DNA of 64,000 bases from Bryoerythrophyllum caledonicum. Lineage: Eukaryota; Streptophyta; Bryopsida; Pottiales; Pottiaceae. This document shows, piece by piece, positions 8,408 to 48,847 of this stretch. The notes under the pieces are model-generated. The model searched no databases. It was not told where the DNA came from and saw only the letters and a program-made list of their open reading frames with translations. The DNA is taken from contig OZ020515.1 of assembly GCA_963971425.1 (NCBI GenBank), positions 4,580,678 through 4,644,677 of the forward strand. Direction: 5' to 3'. A program made the position numbers and the translations under genes. How positions within the stretch are numbered: position 1 is the first letter of the stretch; each line of letters opens with the position of its first letter.

Positions 8408-8410
8408 TTT

Positions 8411-21059: not shown

Positions 21060-21240
21060 CCATGTCCACCCATGTCCGGGCCTGTCCGGGCCTGTCCGCG
21101 GCCGTAGGGTCGCAACTGTCCGCGGGCAGTCCGCGTCTCGTCCGCGCTTTGTCCGCAGGCAGTCCGCTCCCTGTCCGCGCCCTGTCCGCGCCATGTCCAC
21201 GGGCAGTCCGCGTTTCGTCCGCGACCAGTCCGACGCAGAT
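21060..21240. repeat. GTCCGC tandem array 4, upstream of the 20639 gene
   Basis: Repeats of CTGTCCGCGGGCAGTCCGCG and TGTCCGGGCC run for about 180 bp. It sits just upstream of the TATA box on the minus strand. It is the shortest of the minus-strand arrays. Confidence 0.8.
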
Positions 21241-25782: not shown

Positions 25783-27272
25783 GTCAACTGAAGTGTTATT
25801 TTTGCACTATTGTTATTCCAATATTAATCTCAATCACGTTAACTTGAAAGTGTGCAATGGCCCACGCAGTTGCCAGTTAATGCTCTATTGGTAATCTTTC
25901 CACCAGTAGCTAACAGTCTCACGATATTGAATAATCTCTTGTTTATGTGTAACACTTAACACATAACACTTACTAGTATTAATTTGAAGGGATCGGAAAT
26001 CTCCATAACAAATATAGAGTGTTAACACTTTTCGAGGTAACCCTTATCGAGGTCTGACTGTACTAGGTACCTAATCGTGTGTTACAATGTCTAGAAATAA
26101 AAAAGAAAACATATGGTAAACATACAGAAAGTGTATAAAATAAGTCTTAAAAGTAAGTATTTTGTAAAACATATGGAAAACACAAAGAATGGATATCAAT
26201 ATAATTGTTTACTTGGGTTTAGGGTGTCGCGGTTTAGGTTTTGGATTCATATAGTAGTATATTTCAAGACCTTACGATTATGAATCCAAAATTTCACTTT
26301 AAATATGATTTTAATGTCTCCTTATGGGAGTGGTTGATTGAACTAGTCTTTGAGCGGGTTGGGGTATTATTTTGGTCATGAGTGACCCGCCCTTGTCAAA
26401 GATGGCAGGACGGGCCATGTAAGGAATCTTGCCGTTAGGGGTAATAGATCCCAATTAAATTGGAAGGAGAATGAATATGGAACAAAGGACCAAGGGACAA
26501 TAATGAATAATATCTAAATAAAATTAGAAGGGGAGGGAATGGAAGAGGGTTAATCGCAGATGACTATCTAAACTAAATTAGAATGAGAAGGAGGAGGAGA
26601 TTTATGACTAAAGCATTCAATTAAAATAGAATGAGAGGGAACCAAAGGAACAAGGTTCCCATTTCAAATTTTTTAAATTCCTTCTCATTCTATTTCAATG
26701 AAGTTAACACCATATTCGTTATATTGGGAGATTTAGCAACTCCCAAATTAACACATGGAGATCATAAGAGCTAAAGTGCACATCTAATTTCTACAATATG
26801 GAGGGATATGAGTTTCCATTAAATTGGGAGGTAATGTTTTCTACAAAAACCCCTAGAAAAATAAGTACTACGGATAACATTGCATTACAAATCTAACTAT
26901 AATATTGAAAAGAAGAACACATTAGTCGACACTTCTTTTATACCACATGTGTTCATTGAATATGAATAGCTAAATATTCACACTCGATCCTATTAACCCG
27001 GATTAACACCATGCTCCAATTTAGCTAAAAGTGAGCTAAATGACGGACAAATATCCACTTGTAAGAGAATTAGCTAAACAAATTTTGATGAGCCCTTTTT
27101 GATTTAAAAGAATTTTAATTCTCCTTGTGGAATACACATTGGCTAAAAATATATAACGAGTTTCAAATGATGGTGCTCAGAAGTGGGAAACAAATTGCAT
27201 ACACACTACCTCTCTTCGAACTAAAGTGTCCCCATCACTTAGAGGTGCAATGAACTCAAAAAGGCAATTCCA
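25783..27272. other. Intergenic, AT-rich, with a small fold-back
   Basis: No gene is seen. At 26616-26640 and 26678-26702 an imperfect inverted repeat (AAAATAGAATGAGAGGGA versus TCCTTCTCATTCTATTTCA) forms an 87-bp fold-back of MITE-like size. AATAGAATGAGA-type strings also recur just upstream. Confidence 0.4.
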
Positions 27273-27375
27273 CACACTTTAGCTCCACTTGACCTAAAGT
27301 GCGCACCATTACTAAGTACAATGAACTAAATAAGAAGATTTGCTCACACTTTAGCTCCACTAGAGCTAAAGTGCG
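27273..27375. repeat. Palindrome pair, CACACTTTAGCTCC type, 72-bp period
   Basis: Two 31-bp near-palindromes at 27273-27303 and 27345-27375, each CACACTTTAGCTCCACT then its near reverse complement. The spacer reads GCACCATTACTAAGTACAAT. Similar pairs with similar spacers lie at 33207 and 38443. Confidence 0.75.
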
Positions 27376-27686
27376 ACTCAACATATACTTTCTATCATTC
27401 ACCATGAAGACAATTACTGGTATTTTTGGTTTCAAGATTAGAAGCAATTTATCATATTGTTATTTAAAAAAGAGAATAAAACATACTGCAAATTATCACC
27501 GATACGCAAAAATAATGGAGAGAATATTTCATAGCAATCATTGGCATCACATATAATAGTCATACAGAGTGTAAACAAATACAAATGTCTACAATCTCAG
27601 CACCAATGGATCTGACCATACTACATGAAGTATTACGCCTCAGAATCCAAAATCTTGGAAAAGGAAAGTCCATTGATCTAAGTCCA

Positions 27687-30518
27687 CTACGACTCGGACC
27701 TGGCAAGTGCTTCCAAAGAGGCCTTGATAATCGCTACTTGCCCCTTCGGAATTTTTGTAGTTGAATCTTGCACATGACCTCCATCCCTCTTTGAAGACCT
27801 AGGTTTCCATGCTGTCAAGATTGAATCGGTACTCTCCCACGTTATGGCTATCCCCTTTTCAATTGTCCAACGAAGGTTGCTATCAGTATCCCAATCTTTG
27901 TAGAACTTCACAACATCCCGATCGCGCGATATAGGGCGGTAGAATTGGATACGCACAGTGTTTGGCATATCCGGATTAGAATTAGGATCTGAAATCGCTT
28001 GAGCAATCCAAAATGGGCGCTCGTCCCCATCACAAGGCCGCAATGCAACAAAATAGCCAGCAAAAAGATCACCGCCAACTCTAAAAGAAGGAGGTGGACG
28101 ATCGCGCCTCTGGCCAACAAAATGCTCATCTTCACGGTACTCCTCGCGAACCTCACCCTCCGCTGAGAACTCATCTTCAATGGCATGGGCAATTCACGTC
28201 GTTGGCCAAAAGCCGTCTTCCAATGATATCGGTGTATCCATTGGAAGTGTCAGAGCATCTCTAACATCGCGCCAATAATACGATAGCGGCTCAAAACGCG
28301 AACGGGCTTCAACAGACTCCCGCGATGATTGCTCCCAGTGATCGATGAATCCTGAAAGTCCCTTCACCACCTCATGGAGATGTCGCATCGTAGAAGGCTT
28401 CAATGCATCAGGTTCTCCGCGAGGCCATAAAGACCTCCCTTCAGAATCCTCCTTCCACAATTTGATGCCACTACCTTCTCCTCCCTTAGGAAGCCAATCC
28501 TCATCATGGCAAAGGATTTTATACTTCATTACCGGACAACCACTTGACTCCACATAAAACTTGAACTGATGAGCCTTCGTATGACCCTGCAAAGCTTCAT
28601 CACCGTCCGCAATCATATCCCCAATGAACTTCTTAAAGTCAGGAACCTCTTGAATGAGATGCGGGATTGTGGGAACACTCTCATTTTTCATGAACGACCT
28701 CATGAGCAAAGGAATGGTTAGAAAACTCTCCTTCCTCAGTGTCATACTCCAACGTCCAAATAATGCATCTATATCATCATGTGTATGACCAACTAGCATA
28801 AAATTAACATATACCTCGCGGAAGATGCGTTTTGCAACAAGAAGAGACCAAAAACAGAAAACAAATCTATTTTTGTTATCACCAACAGCATTGTCCATTT
28901 GCACGTTCAATATTGGTGGCAAAGACCTCTCTGGAACTAGGATATCTAGAATCGGCCCTAATGGATCCAAACACATCTCCGCACCCCGTAATACCGCCGC
29001 ATACAATGGATGAGAGCAAGATTCAGGAAAGAGTTGCCGGGACGATGACTTCGGAGGCGCCTCCAAGTCACGCAATAGTTTTGCGAACGACCCAACCGTG
29101 TAATTGGCATCATGGGAGTATAAATCAAGGCCGTAATGGGCGTAACGTTGGTCCACATGACCATGAGCAAGCATGCCTGTGATTGCGAGAGGCAACTTCA
29201 TAAGCCCATCTAAGTGCTTTGTTTTATGTGAAAAAACCGGGGAGGCGGTCTTTGAGTGATCCATCTTATCATGCATGATGGTAAGAACCTCCTGGGGCAA
29301 CGACTTTGATCGAAATCGGTTCAGGTAGTACAAGTCCCGATGTGAGAAGGCAGAATCGATGTGAACCTGCATCTTCTTTTGCCATAGCAGCGATGCTTGT
29401 GTTCCAGGTTGAGTAAGCTTCTTCTGATCCTGGTATTTGTCACATGTAGAACAACGGGCAAAGTTGTCTCCACCTTTCTTGGCATAGTACTCAGGAAAGC
29501 TCACTCGCCGAATCTTACTCAAGCTTGAGGTTGAGATTGGCGGCAATCCACAATCAGCGAGATGATCATCAAGAAGCGGTATCTGATCCTTCCACTTAAA
29601 ACTTGTAGGAAGGACCTTTGCCACAGCCTTCTCACCAGATGGGAGAACACGGGACTTGTGAGGCATGTGGTCCGCATGTCTATCGAGAATGGCTCCAAGA
29701 GGGGCAGTAGCCACAACCGTATGACCTCTAGGCTTACGCAAACCGGTATTCCCGTGGTGTTGAGCCGCATGACCAGCGGCAGCGTCCTTCGCATTCCGAT
29801 AGAAAGTACTCGAACTTACACCCATGATTTTCATCCAAGCATGGGCACAAACGTCCACACCCTCTAGAGTCACAACCTTCCTACCCACAGCGTTTCTATG
29901 AAACTGTCTGTGAACGTCGAGTTTGATATGATTTCTGAACTGCACAATGGTCTCACTGTACAAGCGAGTCCGAAGGACTTTTATTTTCTCTCTAGGGTAG
30001 TGTTGAACACAGTTTTGAGTGCAACAACTATTGCTCGCAACAGCGTTAATGGAATGAGGGGTCATGAGGAATTCAGCATTCCTGGACACTGTTGGACGTG
30101 TATTCCTTGAGGAATTGTCGTAAGAACGGGAGCTCCCACCTAGAGGTCTCTTACGCTCAACCAACCAGACATTGTAAACGTCCCTAAGGCAATGATGGAA
30201 GAGACTCACACCGTTTAAGAAGACTTGTTGAATAGGCCGGGACTTAAACGAGTACCTCCATTCATGAGGAGCTTCCTCCAGAACAAAAGTACTGGACACC
30301 TGTACTACAACATTCGAATCCCCAAGAGGACCAGAGGAACCTAGAATTGCACTGGACCGGACATTGCGAACCAACCCCTCTGCAACGCGAACACCCGAAC
30401 CATTGTGAAGCGAAACAGTCATCCCGACCCAGAGACGGCCAGGAATAACATCAAACTCAGGAAGGTCAGGGTTCACGGGAGCGTCAACATGAACATCGTC
30501 GTCCTCCGAAGACGACAT
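27687..30518 (-). pseudogene. DUF7869-like, transposase-related protein gene with one in-frame stop
   Basis: A single long minus-strand frame starts at the ATG at 30516-30518 (MSSSEDDD). A splice-acceptor-like ATACAG lies directly before it. It encodes 774 residues to a TGA at 28194-28196, then continues in the same frame as IAHAIEDEF and on to a stop at 27687, about 943 codons in all. Features by rough residue: acidic start; CSTCDKYQDQKK (about 356); VQMDNAVGDNKN (about 540) and VGHTHDDIDALF (about 577). The GHTHDDID block is the hallmark of DUF7869-type proteins as I know them, a widespread plant, algal and animal family thought to be RNase-H-fold and transposon-related. The part after the stop has a compact domain (PFWIAQAISDPNSN, VRIQFYRPI, ILTAWKPR). 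The stop is CGA to TGA in type, as CpG decay would give. One lesion in more than 900 codons suggests recent loss, read-through, or a functional 774-residue product. Confidence 0.65.
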
Positions 30519-30677
30519 TCTGTATTCCAATGAGGTAAATATTTAATAACCCTGCCAAATAAGAATGGGTGAATACCTTGTAGGAATAGGCATCAATGAA
30601 GAAGCATATGAAGAGGTAAAGTCTGGCGCTTGAAAATACATTTGATACAAGTGAATTGACATTAAAGAACAGGCAAA

Positions 30678-30999
30678 TTTAGCTCGACTCGAGGTAAACT
30701 GATGCAGTATTATATGACAAGTAGAAAATTTAATGCGATTAGTTTTATTCCGAATATGAAATAATCTCACCCTCGACAGTGACAATTTGGCCCGATCCGA
30801 CCTGATTTAATGACTATAAGACGCAATGTAATTTTATCCAGAGTCGAGTTAAAAAGACATAGAAAATAAGGTAGATCAGTTTAGCTCGACTCGAGCTAAA
30901 CTGTCCTTCGAAAGAAGGTAAGACAGTTTTGCTCGAGTCGAGCTAAACTGTCCTTCGAAAGAACGTAAGACAGTTTAGCTCGAGTCGAGCTAAACTGTC
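30678..30999. repeat. Palindrome array, GACAGTTTAGCTCGA type, upstream of the DUF7869-like gene
   Basis: Four copies: 30678-30698 (core only), 30877-30903, 30922-30952 and 30969-30999. The last is a perfect 31-bp palindrome: GACAGTTTAGCTCGA, a central G, then the exact reverse complement. The last two are 47 bp apart with the spacer CTTCGAAAGAACGTAA. They lie 160-480 bp upstream of the ATG of the minus-strand gene. Confidence 0.85.
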
Positions 31000-31113
31000 C
31001 TTCCGCGATTCTCGGCGCCTTTGTCGGGATTCGTATGGGGAAACTCTTCCGCCTATGAATCTGACTCTCTGTATACTACAACCCAAATCTTTCCGTTAGT
31101 CGTCAAGAAACTC

Positions 31114-31413
31114 TCACTGATGCTTCAAAATCACAGTAGCAGCTGGAACCAGCCGAATAACCCTACACACTGTCACATCATAATTGCTAGAGACTGTGCA
31201 CGGAGAATCCAAGAAGTATACATTGTGTACCTTATGAAGAAGACAACCAGTACGTTGTTGCCTCACCTGCTCAACCGTGCGCAACCTATAGGTGTTGCCC
31301 TCTTCAAGCTCCGACAGTCGTACTACCTCCAAGCCTCTCCACAACAACCTTGCACAACAACCAAAGCGAGAAGGAAACAAATGAAGAAAGTTTTCGAGTA
31401 TCGGCGAGGTCAC
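31114..31413 (-). CDS. Small unrecognised frame upstream of the DUF7869-like gene
   Basis: A 99-codon minus-strand frame with the stretch VVRLSELEEGNTYRLRTVEQ followed by YFLDSPCTVSSNYDV. The LSELEEGNTYRL pattern reads like a short beta-rich domain, in contrast to the plus-strand frame over the same bases (31021-31527), which looks less protein-like. It is oriented with the gene at 30518 and could be its neighbour or an upstream exon. The evidence is composition only. Confidence 0.3.
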   Translation of the reverse strand: MTSPILENFLHLFPSRFGCCARLLWRGLEVVRLSELEEGNTYRLRTVEQVRQQRTGCLLHKVHNVYFLDSPCTVSSNYDVTVCRVIRLVPAATVILKHQ

Positions 31414-31619
31414 TCACGGACACACGAACGTTTCAGAATTGGCGGGAGGAAACTTCAGAATTGGCGGGGGGGGGACTTTTTCACAGCCCCTAAAAAGTGC
31501 AAATTGGAAATCTTAGCGGGAAACTGAATCAACTATTTCCCGGTTGACTAAAATAAGAAAAGGTCAATACCTCGAATATACTCGCACATGCGAGTTATAT
31601 ACGCGGTTTTAGGGTAACG

Positions 31620-31760
31620 CTCAGGGTTTTTGATAGGTTTAGGTTTAGGTTTAGGGTTAGGGTTTAGGGTTTGGAGTTTCGGGTTTAGGGTTTGGAGTTT
31701 CGGGTTCAGGGTTTGGAATTTAGGTTCAGGTTTAGGTTTCACGGTTTAGGATCCTTGGTT
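31620..31760 (-). repeat. Interstitial telomere-like repeat
   Basis: Degenerate TTTAGGG and TTTAGGGTTTGGAGTTTCGGG units on the plus strand, for example GGTTTAGGGTTAGGGTTTAG. TTTAGGG is the common plant telomere unit. Lysine/proline-rich minus-strand frames across it are artefacts. Confidence 0.7.
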
Positions 31761-33206
31761 TAGGTGATATCTTCTGATGTCAATTCATTTCAATATAATA
31801 ATACTTTGAAGATTCATGATATTGACAACTCAACTAAGGTATAGGGAAATGTAGAGAAGATATTGAGATGATTAGAAATAGTTTTTATTACAATCCAAAT
31901 AGGACTTATCAATTATGTTGAAATCAAAGACCTTAAGAGACGAGTAGCATATAAAAAAACAAAAAAACATATTATATGTGCACGTGTATTTTTAGCCAAA
32001 ACAAATGTATTCAAACATGCTTTGGACATCATTTCTTTGGGGTTTTAAAAATGTGCGTCATGTAACTATTTCATCATCAATTTAGAATGTGCATTCTTTG
32101 GCAAGAATCCCAATGTCCCCATGGTCTGGATTTGCAATTGAAATTGGTTACTTTCCACTTAGAGGTACTCAAAGACTTGAAATGTGCGCAAACTAATATT
32201 TCAATTAAAATATCTTATTCTTGAGTTCACATTGTATTTTCATGACTTTAGGGTGTGGCAATCTAAGCATGACATAAAAGATGGAAGATTTCTTGACCAT
32301 ATACAATTTATTTCATGTTTAGACGTGAAATTGAAGACTTTGTCATTTGTAAAACATAGAGAGTGGAACAATATTAAAAGATTTAAATAAGAAACGGAGA
32401 GACCTCCTCATGACAAAAAAAGGATAATCAAAATATAAAATATAACTAATACAAAGTGTATCACTTAGTGCATCAGGCATAATTTAATGTTCGTAATGTA
32501 AGTAATTTTGAATTTATTTATACATGCAAAAATGGAATAATTAGTTTTTGAGCACGTTCTAGTGGTCGCAAATTATATTTTAAATTCTCAAAATTTTGTA
32601 AAAGGATGATAAAAGTAATGAGGCATATTTATAAGTAATGTATTTTCTCAATGAGAGGCATATTTATAAGTAATTTATTTTCTCAATGAACCTCTTCATT
32701 AAAAGTTATGCGAGCCGAAAGAGAAACTTCTCGATTGCCGGCACATCGAGCAACCTAAAAAACCTTTTGCTATGACACAGTATGGAATGTGGTATTTTCA
32801 ATACATAGAAGTAATATTAGAACAAATGATATTGTGAAAAAATATGTTATTTTTCTAGTGAAAAATAAGATTACATATTCATTCCTCTATTTTTCACATT
32901 GTCACATATTATTGATTTAGGGTACCAAGAATACTTAGACTTCATATCCACTAAAAATTAGAGGATCGTCATATTTTTTTGTTTTTTAATATTACTATTA
33001 GAGATTTAGATCCACACATTGTGAAAATCCTTTTAAAATTCAAAAGATTACTATTCCACTTGTGAAATACTTATCCATAAAGAGAAGTACGGAGTTCAAA
33101 ATGATTGTTTGTAGAAGTGGAAATACACATTGCACATACATCAGATTGGGTTTTAGCAGAGGTGTGCACCATCTCTACATGCAGTGAACTAAAAGGAGTG
33201 TGTGCA
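31761..33206. other. AT-rich intergenic sequence with a 35-bp tandem duplication
   Basis: AGGCATATTTATAAGTAATG and the bases following it are repeated at 32621 and 32656 (35-bp period). No gene is seen. Confidence 0.45.
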
Positions 33207-33306
33207 CACACTTTAGCTCCACTCGTGCTAACGTGTGCCTCATCACTAGGTGCAGTGAACTAAAAAGATAATATGCACAGATTAGCTCTACTAGAGCTAA
33301 ATTGTG
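33207..33306. repeat. Palindrome pair, CACACTTTAGCTCC type, 69-bp period
   Basis: Near-palindromes at 33207-33237 and 33276-33306 with the spacer CATCACTAGGTGCAGTGAAC. The second is decayed at the ends (CACAGATTAGCTC...GAGCTAAATTGTG), yet its two arms still match each other at most positions. Confidence 0.7.
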
Positions 33307-34809
33307 CACCATCACTAAATGGAGTGGATTAGAAAGCAAAAATGCACTATGTAGCTCCAGTATACAGAAGATGGCTTCTAGAGAAGTGGAAACTAAATAG
33401 GAATGCACACAGTAATTGTAAAATTTACAATAAGTGTAGTGACAAAACTATATTACACTAAATGCCAACTACTACACTAAATGTCAATCCTAGTAAATAG
33501 TAGAACATAAAGTTTTTACTTGTCGACAATTACTGTAGGGAACCATAATCATGATTTGATTACATCTTGAGCATCATAGTAAAGAAGGGTTGAGTGCATG
33601 TAGAAAAGGAAGAATTTGCAAGAAAGAGCTTGGGAATAAACGGACGTAGGTATGGAGCAAAAGGAAAATATAAAAAATTGGACAAAGTAGAATGTAAAAT
33701 ATGGAGGGAAAATGAAACTACAAGTAGAAGACTGGAAATATAAGAACATTCTTCTGGAAACGAAAATGAGAAAAAAAAAGAATATTGGAAAAGGAAAAAA
33801 CTTAAACATACAATAAATATAGGAATACAAGTAAAATACTCATTAGATATCCATCACATAATACGCATTCAATGTGCATTACATATTCAGTAAATATTAA
33901 TTAAATACTCATTAAATATTCAAATACACATTAATTTTACATTAGAAATTTATGCACTATTCATTAACTATTCATTAACAGTGCATTTAATACTCTTTAA
34001 ATAATCATTAAATATATAAATATTAATAAACTATCATAAATATACTTTTAAAACTTCCAACATTCAATAAATAAAATTCCAATATTCTTTAATTGTGCAT
34101 AAAAGTTACAGATATACCAATATACATGAATTATCCTCTAAAAAATCATTACAAAGTCATTAGTTATTGGCTAAATATTTGATTACACATTAAATATTCA
34201 TTAGATAATATTAAATAATGTAAAGAAAATGCAAGAGATGGGAATGAGAATAGTTGTGGATAAGAGGATATGAAATTGAGAAAGAAGATGAGACGAAGAA
34301 TAAATGCATGGCGACCGGTAGGTTGAAGACTTTGAGCTTATACTATTTATCAAGTATCAAAATTGTGTGCTAGGGAAGAGTTTTGATAGAGGGCTATTAC
34401 GAAATGAACTGTAGTAGGTGAACGAATGAGGGATAATATTCAGGACAATGGTGGCTAAAAATAGTTGCCAATTTGTTGACAAATAGTGTACTAGAAAAAG
34501 ATAATCTCCACCGGGGCCGAGTGACCGGAATGCAAGAATAAACACGGTAAAGCCGACTCCGTGAGGCCTAGGCCGGTGTCCCGGCCCACTGGATTGGCGG
34601 CGCCGGTTCCTCTAAATAGTAAATTTACAAAAAGTACAGGGGACACCAACAGTTCGCGAGAGCATGTGTTCAAGCATGAAATTACACGAGGGAATTAAAA
34701 GAAATCAATAAAAACCTCCCAAAAAATTAGCCTACTATGGCATTAGTGCTGGGCGCTGGCGTTCCCTCACAGTGGCCAATTCGGGGACGGTGCGGGGGGA
34801 AAAGGGTGA
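33307..34809. other. AT-rich intergenic sequence
   Basis: Dominated by ATTAAATATTCATTAAAT-like strings between 33840 and 34220. Nothing coding is seen. The last 300 bp are less AT-rich (GGCCGAGTGACCGG, GGCGCCGG) and lead into the hAT target site. Confidence 0.45.
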
Positions 34810-34817
34810 CCTCCCTC

Positions 34818-37800
34818 CAGGGTTGGTTTTTCACAAAGTTTTAACCCATCCATCCAAAAACCTTGAATTGAAAGGCAAAATAAATTGCAAGCCGTCCCAA
34901 AATCGGTAATCTCAAAACCAACCCGTCCATGGAAAGGTTAAAAAAAAACAACCCGTCCCAAAACCGGTTCAAAAAAGAAATACCCGTCCCGTATGTTTAT
35001 AAAACAAATTATATTAAAAAAAAACCAAAAAAAAAACACAAAAAAGGAATAGGCAGAGCCTACAGGCGGCAGCTGCAGAGCCTAGCCATTGCAGAGCTTG
35101 GTTTGGCTCGGCTCTGAAGCCTGGCCCGGCCAAGCTCTATAGCTCATGTCGAGGTTGAGGCTGCACAGGCTGCACAGACTACGAGGTTTAGTTTTTCGCT
35201 CGTTTTTTTGGGTCCAGCTCTTGCACAGCTCAATGGTGCGTTTTCAGCCTGGTTGTGATTTTTCGAGGTGGACTAAAGCTTCATGACCTAGGTATGTTTG
35301 TTTACTTTGATATTTCTTATTTTTTTCAAGTGATAGAGAAGTAATATATACAAGAAATCAACATAGAGTCTAGGTTTAGGGTAAGTCACACATTTAGGGT
35401 TTTTGTATTTCATGTGTGTGGTGATTGATCTGTTTTGAATATGTATTGCAGTTATGTCTTTGCCAGTGTCTGGAGTACCCAGGCAAAGGAGAGATGCCCG
35501 GCAACAGAGCATTCTCCATATGTTTAGGGCATCTTCTTCTTCTCAAACTTTGAGTGATGGGAGGAATGAAGTGCCTGAGTTGCCAGAATCTTCTACTAGG
35601 GGTTCTCTACGTGGTATTCCTGATGTTGAGGTAGAGCAAGGTGGCGTTCAAGGTCATGATCAGATCAGAGAGGACATTGAGATGGCGGAAGAGAATGAGA
35701 TAGGGGAGGACAATGATTTTGATGATAGTGCACATGAGGAGGATAGTGTAGGAGTACAGGTTCCAACTCATGGTGGTGGAGGGCGGCCTCCAAGAAAGAG
35801 GAAGTTTATGCCCGTATGGCATCAGGGAAGGCCCTGGTTGATGCACATTGCTCTCCCTAGACAGATGCCCTACATGAAGTGTGCAGCATGTGAAGCAGCT
35901 GGTCAAAACTCACGATGGGGGACTAGAGGAGACGGTTGTGAGTCATTGCGACTTTCAGCTGTGAAGGAGCATGAAGGATCAACCCTTCATGCTCATGCCA
36001 TGCTCGGGTGGAGATCGGTGAGAGATAACCCTGAGGCACTTGCCATGGCTAGACATGTGGTAAATGCTATTGATGCAGAGAGTACTAGAATTGTTTGTTG
36101 TATGAAGATTTTATACCATTTGGTAGTTAATGATAGAGCTATCAACCAATATGAGGATATGTGTCAGATAATTAGACACCTCAGGGCTCCAGACATGCCT
36201 ATCAATGATGAGTACGGTGCTTACACTAGTAGACAATCTGCATATGATTTTTTGTGGGCCATTTCACAGCATTTGAGGGATATTGATCTTTTAGAAATTA
36301 GAGATTCACTGGTGATCTCTCTTCTTGTAGATGAATCAACCGATCGTAGTCTAGAGCAGCATTTTGATTGTGTATGTTTGCAGTCTATCTTGTGGTGGCT
36401 TAGGCCCTCCACGTATGCAGTATGTTGGTTTGTCTGGTGTTCCACGAGCCACATGAGAGGTATTCTATAGGAATGTGGTGGATTTATTGGAGGAGTTGCA
36501 GTGGCCACTTGACAAATTAGTGGCTTTAGCTACTGATGGAGCGGCTTCTATGACTGGGGTGAGACAAGGACTAGCAGGCAGACTTCGGGCAGATGTACCA
36601 ACACTTGTTAATGTGCATTGCATTGCACATAGGTGAGTCTTTAATTTTAAGTTTTTTTTAATGAATTTCATTATTTTCTAGAACGTAATATATTCACTAA
36701 TTAATTCCCGTGTTTGTTTAGAGATGCACTGGCAGGCAGCGATGCAGCTGAGGCATCACCAGAGCTATAGGTTTTGGATGATTTCTCCAACTTTGCATAC
36801 ACGTGGGTGGGCAGGTCATCATTGCGGCGGACACAGCTTGATCAGTTGATGCTGGAGTTTGCGATGGATCCATTGGTTGTTCTCCACATACATGGAGTTC
36901 GATGGTTATCCCGTGGACAAGTGATGCAACGGATTTTGGATTGTATGCCCTCGTTTCTGGAGCTTTTCCGTGAAGAAGAAGCAATGTGGTATCGTAAATT
37001 CACATCCTTTCAGTTTCAATTCCTTCTACGGTTACTTGTGGATATTCTTACTGAGTTTAATAAACTCAATAAGCTATTTCAGAGTGACCATGTGGATATT
37101 ACTCAGATTGGAGGTCATTTAAACATTTGTATCACAATATTGAGTAGACGTTTTCTAGTAGCAAGAGGTGCAGCATTTGGAAGAGGTTCAAGGGCATTGT
37201 GGCCATTTTTGGAGACATGTGCAACTTCTATGGAGATGGGGTATCCAGTTGCAGATGTGGCCTGAGAACCTATCCAATGCATTTGGAGAGTGTTACTGGG
37301 AGAGCCGGTACTATTGAGGAGTGCAAACTCATTGGGGCAGAGTATGTGCAGAGGGTGGTGGATGCATTGAATAACAGGTTTCCAGACTTAGGCATCTTCA
37401 ATGCATGCAAGCTCTTCAGCCCCAATATCTATCCTGCAAATGATGATGAGAGGATTCGTATTACTGAAGAGTGGTTGGAGAGGTTGTTTGTGAAGTTCCA
37501 GAGTTCTGAAGAAGAACAAGATCGGTGTCGAGGTGAGTGCTTGGAGATGGTAGAGACCATGAGAGAGATGATCCCAAATAAGTCTTTATTTGAAGCATGG
37601 GAGTTTGCAGGTACAACTCCAGAGTGGTCCATCAATTAATTTTGTTTGAGTAACTTGTGGAGGAGAGTTATGGTGATTCCTGTGAGCACTGCAATATGTG
37701 AGAGGGGTTTTTCCAAACAAAACCTGATCAAGAGTCATCTCCGTACTAGGTTGAAGTTGGAGGCTTTAGATGCTTTGATGCGCATTTCATGTGCAAATAT

Positions 37801-38305
37801 TCCAGTTGAAAACATCAATTGGAATGCAGTGATGCTTGTCTGGAGAAATATGAAGGATAGTAGAATTCATCCACTTGTTTGAATGGTAAGTTCTTTTTTT
37901 TTTGTAAAAATTGAACATGTTTATATTAACTAAATTTTTATACAATTGCTTAGTTTACCTTCAATTTAAATCTTTGACATTGTGTTCTAAATATTGTGGT
38001 TGATAAATCAATGTGTGCAGGTGAATCCAGCCTTTTGAAGATTGGTATTTTGATTTGGTATTAGTGGTTTGACTCCATTATGTTTACATTCACATGTCAT
38101 ATATGACATAATGTAATTGATATCTGCATCATTCATTTTTTTGGGAAATAATTGTCAAAAAAAAAATTATTTTTAGAACCCGTCCAAAGTGAATTTGACA
38201 CGTCCAAAAACCAGTTCATTTTCAGAGAACCTGTCCACTGGAAATGTTTTTTTTTTCAGAACATGTCCCGGGACATGTTAGGGACCTTGTGAAAAATCAC
38301 CACTG
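34818..38305 (+). mobile_element. hAT DNA transposon, degenerate, with terminal repeats and 8-bp target duplication
   Basis: The left end CAGGGTTGGTTTTTCACAAA and the right end, reverse-complemented, CAGTGGTGATTTTTCACAAG form an imperfect terminal inverted repeat with the CAG start usual for hAT. The flanking octamers CCTCCCTC (34810-34817) and CCCCCCTC (38306-38313) match at 7 of 8 positions, as expected for an aged 8-bp target duplication. CCCGTCC/GGACRTG motifs cluster near both ends, as hAT subterminal transposase sites do. The transposase gene inside is broken. Confidence 0.8.
35454..37882 (+). pseudogene. hAT transposase, degenerate
   Basis: The frame starts after a splice-acceptor-like TTGCAG with MSLPVSGVPRQRRDARQQS; a donor-like GGTATGT at about 35291 suggests an intron in the leader. 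Signs in order: a zinc-finger-like CAACEAA...H...H (about residues 143-178), LLVDESTDRSLEQH (first catalytic Asp block), ATDGAASMTGVRQGL and NVHCIAHR (second block, 36520-36632), a GT-AG intron at 36633-36720, HIHGVRWLSRGQ, and the C-terminal dimerisation block IPVSTAICERGFSKQNLIKS (37676-37740). There is a stop TAG near 36765 and several frame changes (near 36440-36470, near 37200-37260, and around 37640), so it cannot make a full transposase. Confidence 0.8.
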
Positions 38306-38442
38306 CCCCCCTCACTTCATCTCAAACTTGGGCACCTTCCCGCTGGCGTGGAAAATTCTCCGTCAAGGGTGGAGATGCTCTAACAACTGTATTTGTACCG
38401 TTACAGTAATAGAAAAATGAAGTGAAAAGTACAGAAAAAATT

Positions 38443-38542
38443 CACAATTTAGCTCTATTAGAGCTAAAGTGTACACCATCAGTAAATGTAGGGAACTATA
38501 AAGCAAATACGCACACTTTAGCTCCATTAGAGCTAAAGTGTG
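38443..38542. repeat. Palindrome pair, CACACTTTAGCTCC type, 69-bp period
   Basis: Near-palindromes at 38443-38473 and 38512-38542 with the spacer CACCATCAGTAAATGTAGGG. The spacer is alignable with those at 27304 and 33238, showing a common roughly 70-bp repeat unit. Confidence 0.75.
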
Positions 38543-39540
38543 CACGGGCATTTATTTTTTAATTATACAATTGCAAGATGTGGTCTTAACATACTTATTG
38601 TCTGTTCGATTGTCATAGAAAATAATATCAAACTCATAAATAAACAAAACTTGAATTCAAAGTAATAGAATCTTAAAATCGTAGCTTTAAAACTCTCTTA
38701 AGTGTGCTTCACCTAATAATTGGTGTAGGAGGAACTTATATATATCGATGGTAATGAATTTACTCCTTGTGTAATGCAAAAATTGAAATCAAGTGAAGTG
38801 AAAGCCAGCTGATCCACTAAAACCATGAAAGAAAACTAAACACTAAATACTATAAGCGTTCACTTTCGTCCAATTTAAGTTTGTGTATTATTGAGAAAAT
38901 GTCAATTTAGAAGTTTTAATTGAGATCATACGAATGAAATTGGAAATAATAATTTTCCTTTTGCTACGTGTTCGTTGCCCCAAAATATGCAAAATTGTAG
39001 TGTTAATGGCTCCGGAAAATTGTGTTGGAAATTTAGGAGTACACAAATACTATAGGCGCGTAATATCTTAAACTTATTCTGGTAAAATTAAATTGGCTTC
39101 TTAAAAGTCCGGGTATCAGTAACGAAGGTTTAGGATTTGTGGAGCATCCGGCATAATACCCGGGAGTTACACCCCAATATCGCGAAGGGTATCCCGAGGG
39201 TATCTCGGGACCACCAAACGGCCACAGGGTTTCGACCCTCACGGCTTTAGGTGGCCCAGAAACTTCCCCACGAAGTCGTGGCGCGAGCCATTTTTCTAGT
39301 CTTTTCGTTGCAGTCCAGGTTTTCCGTGTACTTCCAGGCGTTGATGTTATGTGAGTTTTGTGAGTTGATGCGTTAGTTTGTGTTAGTTTCGTTATCTACA
39401 GGGATTGTTATGTTTTTACACTGTAGCGCTGTGTATAGGTTCCGCGTGCCATTTCTGGAGTCTAGGGTTTCCTGCGCATAGGGTTTGTAGGACGTGCGAT
39501 TTGTTGTTGTTGTGTGACTTCGTGTACACTGTAGCGCCAG
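38543..39540. other. Intergenic sequence upstream of the 40389 gene
   Basis: AT-rich to about 39060, then more GC-rich (CCCGGGAGTTACACCCC, GAAGTCGTGGCGCGAGCC) towards 39300. No clear TATA box was found. It probably contains the promoter of the gene whose leader exon ends at 39883. Confidence 0.35.
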
Positions 39541-39544
39541 AGTT

Positions 39545-39795
39545 TAGGGATGTTTGCATGAGATTGTGTGAGATTTGTGAGAGTTTCTGTGAATTTGTGA
39601 GAGTTTGTGTGAGTTTGTGTGAGTTTCTGCGAGGGTGTGTGAGTTTCTGTGAGCGTGTGTGAGTTTGTCTGAGTTTCTGTGAGTGTGTGAGTTTCTGTGA
39701 GTGTTTGTGCATTTCTGTGAGTGTGTGTGAGTTTCTGTGAGCGTGTATGAGTTTCTGTGAGTGTGTGTGAGTTGCTGTGAGTTTCTGTGAGCACG
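39545..39795 (+). repeat. GTGAGTTTCTGTGAG short tandem repeat
   Basis: About 250 bp of units mixing GTGAGTTTCT, GTGAGTGTGT and GTGAGTTTGT. It lies in the presumed 5' untranslated exon or promoter of the next gene. The Thr/His/Ser-rich minus-strand frames over it are artefacts. Confidence 0.8.
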
Positions 39796-40503
39796 TAGAG
39801 TCTGAAACGGCCGTGCGTGGAGGATTGACGTGAACAAGTAACAAGACTTCCAGCTTTTCCAGTCGGATTTCTCAGTTTTAAAGGTAAGTGTACTCATTCA
39901 GTCTTGCATTTCTTTTGATATTTGTGTAGTTTTGCTTTTGATATGATGTGTTGAAACATAATATATGTGTAGCATTGCTTTTGATGTATGTGTCAGCACG
40001 TAGATGAGAGTGTTTATTGGTTTCAATGTGCTGGTTTGAATGTGATGATTTGAATGTGGTGATTTGAATGTGGTGGTTTTGTGGTGGTTTGTGGATATTT
40101 GTTGTGCTAGTTTAAATGTGCTGGTTTGTGCTGGTGTAAATGTGCTACTTTCTGCTAGTTTGAATGTGTTGGTTTCAATGTCATTGTTTCAATGTGCTGA
40201 ATTCAATGTGTTTATTTCAAAGTGCTGAATTTCAATGTGCCCATTTCAAAGTGTTGATTTCAATGTGAAAGATTTCAATGTATTGGTTTCCATGTGCTAC
40301 TTTGATTGATTTTGTGTGTGGGTTTGTAATTGTTGTTGCAGGAAGTCTAGTTCCAACAGAATTTGTCTGGGATTAAGGTTCATAAGCAATGGCTGAAAGG
40401 TAAAATCCATACTCTCACCCAGGAGCCCTAAACCCTACGCCTTCAGTATCATATAACGAATGACGAATCTGTACAATCTGCGATGAATACGCTATTCATT
40501 GAA

Positions 40504-40984
40504 CACAGTTTAGCTCGAGTCGAGCTAATGTGGGAAATCCATATTGCACTATTGTCCACACTTTAGCTCGACTCAAGCTAAAGTGTGCCTCCACTGTGCA
40601 CTAATATCCACACTTTAGCTCGAGTCGAGCTAAAGTGGGCCTTTTCTGTAAACCTTTGGCCACACTTTAGCTCGAGTCGAGGTAAAGTGTGATCAATGAA
40701 GCAAACACGAAAGCGCACTTTGGCGCAACTCGAGCGTAAGTGGGCCAAATGTGCACACAAAAGTCTCACTTTAGCTCGACTCGAGCTAAAGTGTGGACTA
40801 TAATACACTATCAAGGTCACGTAATAGCTCGACTCCAACTAAAATGTACGACTGAGTACGTCTTCGGTTGACATAAAAGCGACTCCTGGAAATGTAATCT
40901 TAATATAAACTCTCAAAGACTGGGTTTGAAATATGTCATAACCTCTCTGTAAATACATTTTACCTCGAATCGAGCTAAAGTGTG
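40504..40984. repeat. Palindrome array, CACACTTTAGCTCGA type, in an intron
   Basis: Clear copies lie at 40504-40533, 40557-40587, 40609-40639, 40661-40691, 40765-40795 and 40955-40984, with decayed ones near 40713 and 40818. The first four are spaced 52-53 bp apart, then spacing becomes irregular. The half-site TTTAGCTCGA is much better conserved than the spacers. All lie within the intron at 40400-41733. Confidence 0.85.
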
Positions 40985-41078
40985 AGACAATCAACATACA
41001 GAACAACTCAAACACAACAACATTCAGACTTTAAACAGTCCAAAAGTATAGTAAACCAATGATACCGACGACCCATCT

Positions 41079-41229
41079 CATGTCAACTTCTCGTTATATT
41101 TTCACATGTGTGCAAGAGCTTCAGTCTCGCTTCAACCACTTGAGAACCTCAAAGAGTGAGGTTCGTGAGTGATTAGAGCGGAACTGAAGCTCTTTCGCAG
41201 TTCTGAGAGTGAAACGAGAAGTAGCCATG
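41079..41229. repeat. Fold-back element, copy 1
   Basis: Outer arms CATGTCAACTTCTCGTT (41079-41095) and AACGAGAAGTAGCCATG (41213-41229), middle arms AGAGCTTCAGT (41115-41125) and ACTGAAGCTCT (41183-41193, perfect), inner arms GAACCTCA and TGAGGTTC. The whole could fold into one long hairpin of MITE or miRNA-precursor size. Confidence 0.65.
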
Positions 41230-41311
41230 ATTTGAATAAAAATGTATAGGAAAGTCGTTTGAATCAATACTGTAAGTGTCAGAACTGTTCAGCTATGCAT
41301 TCCATGCATGA

Positions 41312-41341
41312 GCACTTTAGCTCGAGTCGAGCTAAAGATGC
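41312..41341. repeat. Single palindrome, TTTAGCTCGA type
   Basis: GCACTTTAGCTCGA, a central G, then the complement, between the two fold-back copies in the intron. Confidence 0.75.
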
Positions 41342-41395
41342 AGCTAAAACTTGAATACATCATTGATACATTGGTGTAATTGCAGTCTCCTAACT

Positions 41396-41558
41396 CAACT
41401 CACGTCTACTTTCCGTTCACCTCTCATAAATCGTGCAAGAGCTTCAGTCCCACTTCAACCACTTGAGAACCTCAAAGAGTGAGGTTCGTGAGTGATTTAA
41501 GGGGGAACTGAAGCTCTCCCTCATTTCTGAGAGTTGAGCGAGAAGTAGACATGAGTTG
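41396..41558. repeat. Fold-back element, copy 2
   Basis: Same design as copy 1: outer arms CAACTCACGTCTACTT (41396-41411) and AAGTAGACATGAGTTG (41543-41558), the same AGAGCTTCAGT/ACTGAAGCTCT arms, and a central stretch of about 45 bp (CTTCAACCACTTGAGAACCT onwards) identical to copy 1. The outer parts differ more. Confidence 0.65.
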
Positions 41559-41633
41559 ATTGTAAGCGTCTAAGAGAACGTTCTAAATGACTAAATTTTG
41601 TTTTAGAGTATTACTCACATACTTGAATATCAG

Positions 41634-41664
41634 TACACTTTAGCTCGAGTCGAGCTAATGTGTG
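41634..41664. repeat. Single palindrome, TTTAGCTCGA type, near the splice acceptor
   Basis: TACACTTTAGCTCGA, a central G, TCGAGCTAATGTGTG. It lies about 70 bp before the splice acceptor at 41733. Confidence 0.75.
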
Positions 41665-42296
41665 ACCTCGCCGTCCTAATCGGATGATCAATAGAGCAAT
41701 CTAATATCTTTGCTCTGTTTCGTGTTTGTGCAGATCTGAGAGGGACAAGATGGTGTCACAGCTGTAGCACTTCTTCCAGCCAAAGCCTGTCGACGTTGAC
41801 GATGACGATGGGGACGACAACAACCACTTGGATTGCTGGGAGCTGAAGGATCCATCGATGACACTGAAGTGGACGCTTCTGTGGGCGACCTATACGGATC
41901 ATATAGTGTTTGGTCAGACCTTTGCTGGTGCTATCGTCGATCCCCAGCACATCGACTTCAAGACCAAAGTTACTGATGTAGTCCACGAAGATAACGATCA
42001 CGTTAAGTTGTCGTGTGAGACGACCACTGAGTCCTTAGATCCGTATTTCTTTACTATTATAGTAAACAATAGTTCATCTCCCTTCTGTATCTTGGATTTG
42101 GTCGATTCTCTTAGGTCTTCCAAATTTGAGGAAATAGTGACTCAGGTCGAGCATGAGATCTCTCTTAAGAAATGGGAGACTAGTAGCGGACAGCCGCTGA
42201 AAGCAAAGGCTATAGCTAATAAACTGCGCGTCATTCTCTCTAGAATGAGTACCTTTGCCGCTCTAGATAAGGCGAAGAATATCGCGGCAAGACGCC

Positions 42297-45268
42297 TGTG
42301 AGCCGCAAAAACGGCCCACGATGTTGAATGGACCGCGCATCGCGTCCATAAAGGTTAACTAGTAGTCAAAATGGGTTATCCCATTGGTTAGTTCATGGTT
42401 TTCGATTGGATTGACCAAATAGGCCTTCCGACCACTAAATCATTAGTGGGAGCCACATTGTGGTAACCGGGAGTTTTATGAAGATAACCGAAAAAAATAA
42501 ATAAATAGAAGAAAAAAATAAAATAATAATAATGGAGAAAACCAAAACAATAGAAAGGAGGAAAAATGGTGAGAAGGAGAAAAAGAGAAGAAAAAGTTAA
42601 AGAGCCTCAAAGAAAAGGGAAAAAAAAAATATAGTTTAAGAGACCCAAAGGCTTGGGGAAAACCCTCACCATCATTTGGCAAATTAGCCGTAACCCAAAA
42701 CAAGGGGAATTCAATCTAGGCTAATTAGGTAGTTTTTGCATCGTTGAAATTATATTAGAAGCTCACTTATTGGAGATCATGCACACACATGTGGCATGGG
42801 ATTAAAGTAGGTAATTTAGACTTCCTTGGTTAGTGGGACGCCCAATTGTGTTAAAAGCAAGGGTGGCAAGGAGTTAGTGTCATAGGTGAATAGGTTTTTT
42901 ATTAAAAAGGGTCATTAATGGAAGGGCCAAAGGCGGCGGGGAACACCCATGGGAACGAAGGCGAGCTAGGCTGGGGGGTTACCCCTGGAGGTGCACCATT
43001 ATTCGAATGTGGGAGAGTGTGGGGGTAGAGAGAGAGGACTGAGGAATGAGAGCCGGAAGCCTTGGCCACTGTGAGGACGAATTAGGCACACGAAGAGGAA
43101 GAGCAAGACAGCATACGAAGGGGACGATCACAGCACACGAAGAGGAAGAGCAAGACAGCACACGAAGGGGACCATCACAGCACACGAAGGGGACGATCAC
43201 AGCACACGAAGAGGAAGAGCAAGACGATCACAGCACACGAAGAGGAAGAGTAAGACAGCATACGAAGGGGACGATCACAGCACACGAAGGGGACGATCAC
43301 AGCACATGAAGAGGAAGAGCAAGACAACACACGAAGGGGACGATCACAGCACACGAAGGGGACGATCACAGCACACGAAGGAGACGATCACAGCACACGA
43401 AGAGGAAGAGCAAGACGATCACAGTACACGAAGAGGAAGAGTAAGACAGCATACGAAGGGGACGATCACAGCACACGAAGGGGACGATCACAGCACATGA
43501 AGAGGAAGAGCAAGACAACACACGAAGGGGACGATTACAGCACACGAAGGGGATGATCACAACACACGAAGAGGAAGAGCAAGACGATCACAGCACACGA
43601 AGAGGAAGAGCAAGACAACACACGAAGGGGACAATCACAGCACACGAAGGGGACGATCACTGCACAGGAAGGGGACGATCACAGCACACGAAGGGGACGA
43701 TCACAACACACGAAGAGGAAGAGCAAGACAGCACACGAAGCGGACGATCACAGCACACGAAGAGGAAGAGCAAGACATCACACGAAGGGGACGGTCACAG
43801 CACACGAAGAGGAAGAGCAAGACAACACACGAAGGGGACGATCACAGCATACAAAGAGGAAGAGCAAGACAACACACAAAGGGGACGATCACAGCACACG
43901 AAGAGGAAGAGCAAGACAGCACACGCAGGGGACGATCACAACACACGAAGAGGAAGAGCAAGACAGCACACGAAGGGGACGATCACAGCACACGAAGAGG
44001 AAGAGCAAGACAGCACACAAAGGGGACGATTACAGCACACGAAGGGGACGATTACAGCACACGAAGGGGACGATCACAACTCACGAAGAGGAAGAGCAAG
44101 ACAACACACGAAGGGGACGATCACAGCACACGAAGAGGAAGAGCAAGACGATCACTGCACACGAAGAGGAAGAGCAAGACGATCACAACACACGAAGAGG
44201 AAGAGCAAGACAGCACACGAAGGGGACGATCACAACACACGAAGAGGAAGAGCAAGACGACACACGAAGGGGACGATCACAACACACGAAGGGGACGATC
44301 ACAGCACAGGAAGGGGACGATCACAGCACACGAACGGGACGAGCAAGACAGCACACGAAGGGGACGATCACAGCACACGAAGGGGACAATCACAGCACAC
44401 GAAGTGGAAGAGCAAGACAGCACACGAAGGGGACAATCACGAAGCAAGGAAGGAGGGTGAATTGAATTCAATCAGGGAGCCCCTCCCTTCCCCGGCTAGT
44501 AGTCAATGTTTTGTGTGCATGAGGGAAACCTAATTTTCGAAATACAACCAAACTACGCGGAAGCGCTGCCGATTTTTTGCTAAGATTAGGGTTTGTTATA
44601 GATTCAACTAAACAACCGGTTAAGGATCAGTAGTAAGTAACTCAGCTGGAGGTCATACTTAACAAGACTGACGTAGATTAATTATGTGGATGGAAGTAGT
44701 ATATGCGTGGATATGTGATGCATGACCTTGAGTAAAATCATATGTTGAGCATGTACTGCTGGTCGTCGGTTATGAGTTCATGGTTGGGTCGTATGGTTGA
44801 TAGAGGGCTGCCATCTTGTTAAGCAAGAAAAACTAATAATAATACAAAAAACAAACGTAAAAAACGGAGTTGTAATCACGAAGATAGTGAGTAATTAAGC
44901 TTAACATAAAAAGAGGAGCCTGTCTGCTGTCGACTGGTTCCAGGGTCGCACCTAAGTCTGAACCTGATCACTAAGGGTCTACTGAAGTTCGTAATGCTGA
45001 ATTGAACCCATAGGTGGTGAAAACGTTGGATTCGGAGCCCTAGAGCAAAAGTTACCTTTGTTCAAAGGTAGACTCAATCAAAGGGCTGGATTAAATCACC
45101 GCCTCACTAATCAACCAAAAGGAACCTAAGTACGTATGAAAGGTGTAACCATGCTTGCATAAGTTGGTTGTGAATGGGCTGAGGATTGATCACACAAGGG
45201 ACTAGGCCCATATTAGGATCTTGTGTTCAAGATAGGCCACCCTTTAGGGGCGGTTTATTTGGCTCACA
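42297..45268 (+). repeat. 5' LTR of element B
   Basis: 2972 bp, TGTGAGCC...GGCTCACA. It matches the 3' LTR closely outside the internal array, which here runs from about 43075 to 44450 and is some 500 bp longer than in the 3' LTR. Confidence 0.9.
43075..44450 (+). repeat. GAAGAGGAAGAGCAAGAC / GAAGGGGACGATCACAGC array in the 5' LTR
   Basis: Two kinds of 22-25-bp modules, GAAGAGGAAGAGCAAGACAG and GAAGGGGACGATCACAGCAC, alternate irregularly. They keep long frames open on both strands (RRGRARQHTKGTITAHEEEE and the reverse), which I do not regard as genes. Confidence 0.9.
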
Positions 45269-45271
45269 TTT

Positions 45272-45289
45272 TGGTGCGTCTGCCGGGAG
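45272..45289 (+). other. Primer-binding site, tRNA-Gly(UCC) type, element B
   Basis: TGGTGCGTCTGCCGGGAG, three bases after the LTR end, identical to the sites at 8411 and 63125. Confidence 0.8.
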
Positions 45290-46763
45290 GAGGCGTGTTC
45301 TTTGCTTGGAAGGTGTTAATCATTCTACCGTTGGATGTAGGTACAAACGCTAATAGCCTTATGGCGTATGGAGAAGCATAGGGTGGCTTGAGGTAAGTGC
45401 CAACTTGCTAATGCATGGTTGAGTGATTGATAAGTGTGAATGCCTTGTGGATGTTTGGAAGTATTGTGAATTCATGAATGCCAAGTTGTGTTTAAAGGTG
45501 GGGGTCTAGAAGGGAGTGTGGTTTCCCGACCTTCCAACCCCAATACACCTTGTGTTGGAGGGATCCCCTTCTAGGCTTGTGGCTTGAGTTGAGCAAGGGA
45601 CCTAGGGGTGAAAGGTTGAGGCCCTCCCACGGAAATCCACAAGGATTTCCACTCAGCCCCTAGGTCGAAGGGGAAGGGTGCATGAGCCCGGGTATGGGAC
45701 AAGGGCGCCCCTTTCTTCCCCCCGCGCTTGACTAACCACCAAGGTAAGAACAACTTGGTGTAAATGGAATGGTTGAGTCAAATGTGGCAAGTTAACGCTA
45801 TGTATGTGTGAGTGAGCCACTTGGAGGGGAGTTGGAGTCGTGGACGCATCCAAGACGTAGGGGTGCTGATTGGAAGGAGCGTTGCGTACGGTATGTGCAC
45901 TACACCCTCTTTTAGGACCACGAGTAGTAAATAGGACCAACTTGTATGCGGTGACCGCACTAGGGCTACGAAACCCTGATTTCCCACTTGAGCCGTAGGG
46001 AACGCTTGCCTTAGAACCTCTAGATTGGGCCAACCACAAAATTGCATGCAACGAATAGTGCACTAACAAGTGAATTGGCTGGAGTTGCTTCAAGGTAAGT
46101 TATCCCCCTCTAAAAACGTTGTATGCGATCCATGGGTTGTCCTTAGAATCGTTAGATGCGGTAGGTCCACGGTCGACTTCAACTAACGGTGACAGGGTGG
46201 CTGGAGATGCATCAAGGTATGTCTTCTACGCGGTGATAACATAGTATACACACATTGTGCGTGCCGTCCCGTGATTGTGTCGTTTTCCTCCTAGTGGGTA
46301 ATGCCTAGTTCAAGGAGGTAAAAGGTGGAAAGGGGATACCGAGGATACCAGGGAACACCACCTTTTATCAAATTGAGGCCTAGGTCAGCCCCACAGTAAG
46401 GATTTGTACCGTGTGGCGCCAGTTGACGGACAACTTTCCAACGGGGTGATGCTCGTGGAGACATCCCTCGATTCGGTTAGCTTTTTGTCGTTGCCCTTGA
46501 AGGGTAGTCCTTAATAGGATTCTTCGGCGGCTTCATCGAGCTAAAACTCCACCACTAAGAAATTTTTGGGTCTTGGTCTTGAGTGAGTCCATCCTCGTGA
46601 TAGAATTGGGAGTAGAAGTGTTGGAAACACCCACTCACCAATCGAACTAGGCCGTGCTTCGTGTAGATCCACCCACGGTCTCAAAAACTTGGACGGGAAG
46701 CCTTTTGGAGGACATGACAACCAACAACAAGCCACTGGACCCTACCCTTGGATCCTAGAGTAG

Positions 46764-48827: not shown

Positions 48828-48847
48828 ACAACACCACCAAAGAGGCG

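Follow-up and report, generated by a model that had tools for sequence, protein, structure and literature searches.

Why does a stretch of moss DNA carry many copies of one short palindrome, and why do the two arms of a copy tend to agree where copies differ? We addressed this question in a 64,000-nucleotide window from Bryoerythrophyllum caledonicum (contig OZ020515.1, positions 4,580,678 to 4,644,677; all of it is meant by "the window"), in which a first-pass annotation had described a dispersed family of 31-bp palindromes. We found that the palindromes are recurrent parts of a large DNA transposon, that their core is more conserved than the flanking DNA, that a related family carries a different palindrome at matching places, and that the centre base flips between G and C more often than expected. 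From these sequence comparisons we suggest, with a probability of roughly one in two, that the palindromes are cis sites of the transposon, bound by a dimeric protein that the element itself encodes and that would act against silencing, as VANC proteins do, with symmetry helped by template switching.

We scanned for arms TTTAGCTC and GAGCTAAA around a 5-bp centre and scored 16 core positions; with its outer arms the palindrome is 31 bp long, and the full motif can be written TTTAGCTCGASTCGAGCTAAA. The half-site TTTAGCTCSA, allowing at most 1 mismatch, occurred 46 times in the window, compared to a mean of 7.66 (standard deviation 2.38, maximum 14) in 100 shuffles. Nineteen sites had at most 2/16 core mismatches, in agreement with the earlier claim of at least fifteen copies of a shared half-site facing its complement. 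Every one of them lay between 27015 and 41664, within a single transposon copy (26706-42296). Beyond that copy the best sites had 5 mismatches, and two sites with 4 mismatches sat in a later 3.5 kb insertion. Across the 437-Mb genome, exact matches to the 21-bp form, with the inner variable base either G or C, numbered 3,834, compared to 0 for its reversed control.

In the window and at most of the genome loci compared, the dispersed palindromes are not an independent repeat: all 19 good window sites fell within one transposon copy, and the copies belong to a single transposon family. When six otherwise unassigned palindrome loci were compared with a complete transposon copy, five matched (L001, L002 and L047 at 81-87%; L046 and L048 at about 70%). 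The sole non-match, L045, carried palindromes of a second type. We also rejected an ordinary satellite with conserved spacers: the sites occur at many places of one transposon and with varied spacing, though some clusters are tandem or related. Spacers had been thought unrelated between loci. Those inside clusters repeat as tandem units, 47 bp long at 30.86-31.00 kb, 52 bp long at 40.5-40.7 kb and 69 bp long at 33.2 kb, and the clusters at 27.07-27.37 and 33.00-33.30 kb were 69% alike (316 columns); otherwise the spacings differ. The site table did uphold the outer-arm types, with GACAG/CTGTC arms at 30.9 kb and CACAC/GTGTG arms in most sites at 27, 33, 38 and 40 kb, and the location of clusters upstream of the DUF7869 gene (gene A below) and in an intron of another gene (gene B).

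The limits of the transposon came from comparison with other copies. In blastn alignments of the window with seven fetched regions, matches stopped at 42294-42296 in all seven; two of these regions are partial, and in the others the start was 26706 (four regions) or 26697 (one). Collinear blocks were interrupted at 34815-38304, an insertion into the window copy. Eight copies with both ends read were 18.0-19.0 kb long, and two complete copies aligned over 19.0 kb at 97% identity. The ends are AACACCATATTCGTTATAWTGGGARATTT in inverted orientation; complete copies have 29-bp inverted repeats, with 1-2 variable bases, at both ends. Genome matches to the transposon end with at most 2 mismatches numbered 1,059 and 1,060 on the two strands (about 2,100; control 0). 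A perfect 4-bp target duplication flanked 7/8 copies (CATC, TAAT, ATAT, ATAG, AATG, TTTT and TATT, the TTTT falling in a run of T), and the eighth, the copy at C1:7661940, was without a clean one.

The features are listed in Table 1, and sites outside the window are named by their position in the complete copy C1:7661940-7680937. This copy held 32 sites with at most 2/16 core mismatches, none of which (0/32) was in a predicted exon. Intron limits were set by eye, using GT/AG signals and open frames and no transcripts, and later parts of the element may hold further introns. Each of the four delimited introns contains at least one palindrome. The left subterminal sites were orthologous in 7/9 aligned copies; the remaining two were without that part. 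Intron 1 of gene B also contains longer repeats at window positions 41074-41235 and 41393-41559, 82% alike. Each matches the other or itself reversed at about 71-72%, and they resemble imperfect palindromes of about 160 bp.

Table 1. Coordinates of the transposon, its palindromes and genes, and adjoining elements
Feature	Coordinates	Numbering	Strand	Remarks
DNA transposon copy	26706..42296	window	.	holds all 19 good palindromes; broken by 3.5 kb insertion; right side cut by long terminal repeat (LTR) retrotransposon
Left terminal inverted repeat	26706..26734	window	+	AACACCATATTCGTTATATTGGGAGATTT; 29 bp, as at both ends of complete copies
Left subterminal palindromes	27015-27045, 27273-27303, 27345-27375; degenerate one 27200-27230	window	.	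site scan
Gene A	28194..30518	window	-	stop-free open reading frame (ORF); DUF7869 (PF25273, E 2e-43); candidate transposase
Palindromes upstream of gene A	30673..30999	window	.	single, 30673-30703; 47-bp tandem array, 30875-30999, GACAG/CTGTC arms
Palindrome pair, 69 bp apart	33207..33306	window	.	between genes A and B
Later insertion	34816..38303	window	.	3.5 kb; zf-C17orf113 ORF at 35439-36470 (Pfam); outside palindrome system
Palindrome pair, 69 bp apart	38443..38542	window	.	between genes A and B
Gene B intron 1	40400..41733	window	+	GT...AG by eye, ATGGCTGAAAG/GTAAAA to GTGCAG/ATCTG; same signals in complete copy
Eight palindromes	40504..41664	window	.	inside intron 1 of gene B; 5 in 52-bp array and 3 single; arms mostly CACAC/GTGTG
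Gene B exon 2	41734..42296	window	+	truncated by retrotransposon
LTR retrotransposon	42297-55498	window		repeats 42297-45268 and 53035-55498, about 89-91% alike; adjoins transposon
Sites, left subterminal	326, 584, 656	complete copy		
Sites, upstream of gene A	3967-4406	complete copy		
Sites, between genes	6713-8521	complete copy		
Sites, gene B intron 1	10518-11811	complete copy		
Sites, intron 2	13381, 13478	complete copy		
Sites, intron 3	14965, 15052, 15177	complete copy		
Site, intron 4	16291	complete copy		
Sites, downstream	17630, 18349	complete copy		

We found that the core of the palindrome is constrained. Sites were picked in one copy and then compared in five distant other copies. 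At 19 single sites, the core differed in 78/1,653 comparisons (0.047) and the flanks 21-60 bp away at 0.190, a four-fold difference in conservation. The outer arms differed at 0.124, the centre base at 0.245 and coding parts at 0.081-0.121. At 13 array sites, where the alignment is less sure, the core differed at 0.105 and the flanks at 0.250.

A second, related family carries the palindrome TTCAGCTC...GAGCTGAA. Palindromes of this kind form an array at L045 (type GCACATTCAGCTCGAGTCGAGCTGAATGTGC), and their core occurs 674 times in exact form in the genome (control 0). We found the related family in a 19.5-kb stretch around another such cluster (L119:1-9500 and L118:1-10000). Homologues of the first family's genes follow in the same order in the 19.5-kb stretch: the start of gene A (55% over 192 amino acids), gene B (37-52%, three long ORFs), the next ORF (31%, 61 amino acids), the phosphatase (42%) and the last ORF (31%). 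The DUF7869 part of gene A falls outside the stretch, and no match to the first family's inverted ends was found in it at up to 10 mismatches. By blastn with L118, just two coding pieces are alike between the families; the introns therefore no longer align.

The second palindrome is nonetheless found at matching places. With core base 3 free to be T or C, the stretch has 25 sites with at most 3 mismatches and 22 with at most 2. Of the 22, a 34-bp array upstream of gene A holds five and the part preceding exon 2 of gene B eleven; introns 2 and 3 have two each, a single site falls between the next two ORFs, and another lies downstream. Among the eleven, 6/10 spacings are 52 bp, the same period as in the first family. 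One of the three sites with 3 mismatches is in an exon, like chance. By eye, the most frequent forms of the two families differ in six pairs, the third of the core and five of the outer arms, and pairing is retained in every one.

We found that the arms covary between sites. Thirty of 32 tabulated sites were merged into 19 founders (4122 and 10989 were left out). Among these, 69/95 outer pairs were Watson-Crick, compared to a shuffled mean of 53.0 (0/2000 shuffles as high). With three related clusters merged, the figure was 62/85 compared to 45.8 (0/5000). Outer pairs -5, -4 and -1 covary; -3 and -2 do not (C:G in 15/19 and A:T in 17/19). The palindrome thus appears to be kept as a unit, as had been proposed: its core is conserved above flanks and coding parts, the arms of founders covary, and in a distant family the corresponding places carry palindromes altered in both arms.

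The centre of the palindrome behaves differently from its core. Six of the ten single-copy G/C centres showed both G and C among 6-8 copies, against a background of 295/3,006 non-coding G/C columns and 12/163 arm positions. We sampled 20 further copies via right-end anchors, of which 17 match the wanted part (L074 and L083 match another part, L081 none), and read six sites in up to 24 distinct copies (L071 and L076 are missing at 13.3-13.6 kb). On a tree built from columns outside the palindromes, five of these sites required 10 changes between G and C, compared to 1.35 expected from 397 columns, an excess of about seven-fold (Poisson 1.6e-6; 0/100,000 resamples). All 113 centre bases at these five sites were G or C; one of them, 16291, has an arm mismatch further out in most copies. 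The sixth site, 15177, was excluded from the sum; it has an arm mismatch, its centre is C, T or A, and it showed zero G/C changes.

Such an excess is what template switching between the arms predicts, and we infer that template switching caused the flips; conversion of a site by other palindromes is a possible alternative source. One copy has the loop tagtg, the exact reverse complement of the cacta found in most (L037 has a near form), and site 13381 seems to have swapped arms with 13478 in some copies. In yeast, as reported in PMC8604942, template switching between arms homogenises the arms and inverts the spacers, recurrently and reversibly, at short inverted repeats with arms longer than 9 bp. 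The yeast cases are in coding genes; the switching proposed here would have occurred at repeated sites of a transposon, whose centre is 1 bp or 5 bp long.

The element encodes several proteins that could be involved. Pfam searches of six main ORFs gave DUF7869 and a NIF-type phosphatase above cut-off, the latter encoded beyond gene B; a coiled-coil gene comes after gene B. In complete copies, gene B itself matched nothing in Pfam or NCBIfam at cut-off, and a profile of three gene B sequences found nothing in PDB. Gene B conserves a FYIINGQHSVAAS stretch between the families (L006:2566-4071 and L118:2929-4581), which are otherwise about 39% identical; the stretch had no family or structure match. 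We take it to recall ParB/Srx-type motifs, a resemblance that no search backs and that we did not use. For the DUF7869 protein, no relative was confirmed in viral contigs and none was found among PDB sequences, and its AlphaFold model (mean predicted local distance difference test score 35.3) was unusable. Our literature search found no paper mentioning DUF7869 and, among the papers listed and judged by title and abstract opening, none on such a palindrome system.

We propose that an element-encoded protein, most likely a dimer from gene B or from the following coiled-coil gene, would bind the half-site TTTAGCTC on both arms, and that sites may be repeated across the non-coding DNA (subterminal, upstream of gene A, intergenic and in introns) because that protein binds them. 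By covering the non-coding DNA it might keep the element's genes expressed or unsilenced, like VANC proteins for VANDAL elements. Protein and sites would coevolve, so that the related family carries its own palindrome at matching places, and a DNA polymerase switching templates could copy one arm onto the other and invert the centre, aiding symmetry beyond the core. Two separate supports underlie this proposal: a two-fold-symmetric protein site would explain the fixed core, and template switching the centre flips.

Several observations weigh against the proposal. At 15 intron sites, 110/126 distinct variants were one-sided, and 10 of the 16 two-sided ones preserve pairing. At 20 single-copy sites compared across copies, 747/805 differing pair cells were one-sided (6,300 pair comparisons). 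The 58 two-sided differences compare with 29.6 expected under independence and about 36/5,460 with slid partners; just 8 of the 58, from two sites, keep pairing. In arrays, 158/3,465 comparisons differed on both sides and 47 of these keep pairing, for which a shifted array alignment may be the cause. On these counts we rejected single-site covariation as proof of selected pairing; with most changes one-sided, symmetry is not enforced in inserted copies. The first-pass annotation had the arms changing together: this holds between sites and, by eye, between families, but within one site mostly one arm changes across copies. Independent divergence of the arms, which it had named as evidence against itself, is mostly what individual copies have, partly to its disadvantage. 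We read the within-site pattern as decay of inserted copies over a symmetry kept in the active lineage. Also on the negative side, a protein site in itself does not need covariation at degenerate outer positions; the scanned ORFs of gene B and the coiled-coil gene matched no DNA-binding family at cut-off; the second family had no site, at up to 3 mismatches, at the place of the first family's intergenic pairs; the flip count was made at five sites in 24 related copies; and the VANC motif is not called palindromic, "palindrom" occurring 0 times in the main texts of PMC5735166 and PMC10398659.

Other explanations account for part of these results. The palindromes might be bound by a transposase or accessory protein that joins the ends, like CACTA subterminal repeats. 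This would fit the sites found 0.3-0.7 kb inside both ends, and also the element's inverted ends and target duplications. However, most are internal (upstream of gene A, intergenic and in introns), and the subterminal ones are by eye no better conserved than the internal ones, so that we consider a role in transposition rather unlikely. Alternatively, pairing and not sequence could be selected, in RNA hairpins of introns and leaders (for splicing or small RNA) or in DNA cruciforms. The covariation at degenerate outer pairs, the six pairs changed on both sides between families (by eye) and the presence of a site in all four delimited introns would fit. Against this, the core is fixed in sequence, beyond pairing alone, and several sites, e.g., the subterminal ones, are not obviously transcribed. 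Wobble-keeping transitions were not clearly favoured over wobble-breaking ones (37 compared to 29 distinct variants at the 15 intron sites; the numbers are small and many variants probably post-date insertion). We favour a two-fold-symmetric protein site over structural RNA because of the fixed core, the free centre, the placement in introns and leaders and the symmetric shift of the motif between families, and regard hairpins as improbable. The first-pass annotation had left three options: the fixed core speaks for a protein site and the flips for a copying process, and the transitions lend no clear support to a selected RNA hairpin.

It is also conceivable, if quite improbable, that the palindromes have no function, spreading and staying symmetrical through mutation alone (template switching, tandem duplication and exchange between neighbours). 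Flips far above background, the loops cacta and tagtg, the apparent arm exchange of 13381 and 13478 and the tandem units are all of the kind expected. Template switching alone, however, does not account for a core conserved four times better than its flanks, for predicted exons without good sites, or for matching placement in a family whose introns do not align. A host transcription factor or chromatin protein could instead have been recruited in place of an element-encoded one, as none of the scanned element proteins has a recognised DNA-binding domain. But the motif differs between two element families of the same genome; coevolution with element proteins therefore fits better than a single host factor, and we think recruitment of a host protein very improbable.

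If an element-encoded protein does bind the palindromes, then the marking of non-coding DNA by a transposon for its own protein would extend beyond the VANDALs of Arabidopsis. More tentatively, and less likely than not, DUF7869 transposons may have evolved self-recognition independently, as a second such system, with a dense palindromic address in introns and leaders, a reader of their own that coevolves with it between families, and template switching that refreshes the symmetry and flips the centres. This genome has homologous elements that differ in motif at corresponding positions, which makes coevolution of motif and protein directly testable by binding in vitro, and thousands of short palindromes in related copies are a natural record of the rate at which palindrome centres invert.

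Two other elements have affected the window copy. The 3.5 kb insertion, which we infer to be hAT-like, is missing from copies covering that place, and the element sequence picks up again at 38304. On the right, the bases beside the two LTRs of the retrotransposon do not match as a duplication of the target site, and the window yielded none of the transposon's later parts; the right part of this copy has therefore probably been lost.

Elsewhere in the window, an 11-bp unit like GCGGACTGGCC recurs in either orientation in several arrays, at 11213-11973, 14516-14752, 17807-18004 and 21116-21232. A TTC tract (56541-56815; 91.7 copies, 100% match) reads as a long serine run in one frame. A 319-bp stretch at 442-760 recurs 56 kb away at 56814-57132 with 96% identity. 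ORFs at 57447-60185, 16356-17336 and 20007-20651 are alike near their N-termini by eye, one having a C-terminal RING finger, and are possibly an expanded gene family.

Among known systems, CACTA/En-Spm elements likewise repeat a short motif in both orientations within a DNA transposon, partly near the ends; their subterminal repeats are bound by TnpA, their ends start with CACTA, and they make a 3-bp duplication. The present element is not one of them: it has AACACC ends and 4-bp duplications, and most of its sites are internal. Nor did we find it to be a VANDAL or other Mutator-like element, for which target duplications are about 9 bp; Pfam recognised no Mutator domain in the six main ORFs. 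Sola transposons, according to the sections of PMC10741241 and PMC3627910 that treat them, have 4-bp target duplications (here in 7/8 copies) and inverted ends, can exceed 15 kb and are reported in the moss Physcomitrella; those sections leave palindrome arrays unmentioned. The 29-bp repeats fall within the range of 11-1124 bp given for Sola terminal inverted repeats in that part of PMC10741241, a weak likeness common to other superfamilies. From target duplication and size, our best guess is that the superfamily is Sola-like.

The closest likeness in the use of a motif is with VANC and the VANDAL elements of Arabidopsis, which are Mutator-like. The present system, for which an anti-silencing effect is a proposal, differs in its 31-bp palindrome, 29-bp inverted ends and 4-bp duplications, and no Mutator protein was recognised in it. 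VANC motifs are described in PMC5735166 as tandem repeats in introns and upstream regions; they differ from one VANDAL family to another, and an anti-silencing protein binds them (PMC5735166, PMC10398659). In both systems, as far as these accounts go, short repeated motifs stand in introns and upstream regions, often in tandem, and evolve fast and jointly, and related families differ in them (PMC5735166, PMC10398659); the moss transposon likewise repeats its motif in non-coding DNA, partly as tandem units, and has a relative whose motif differs.

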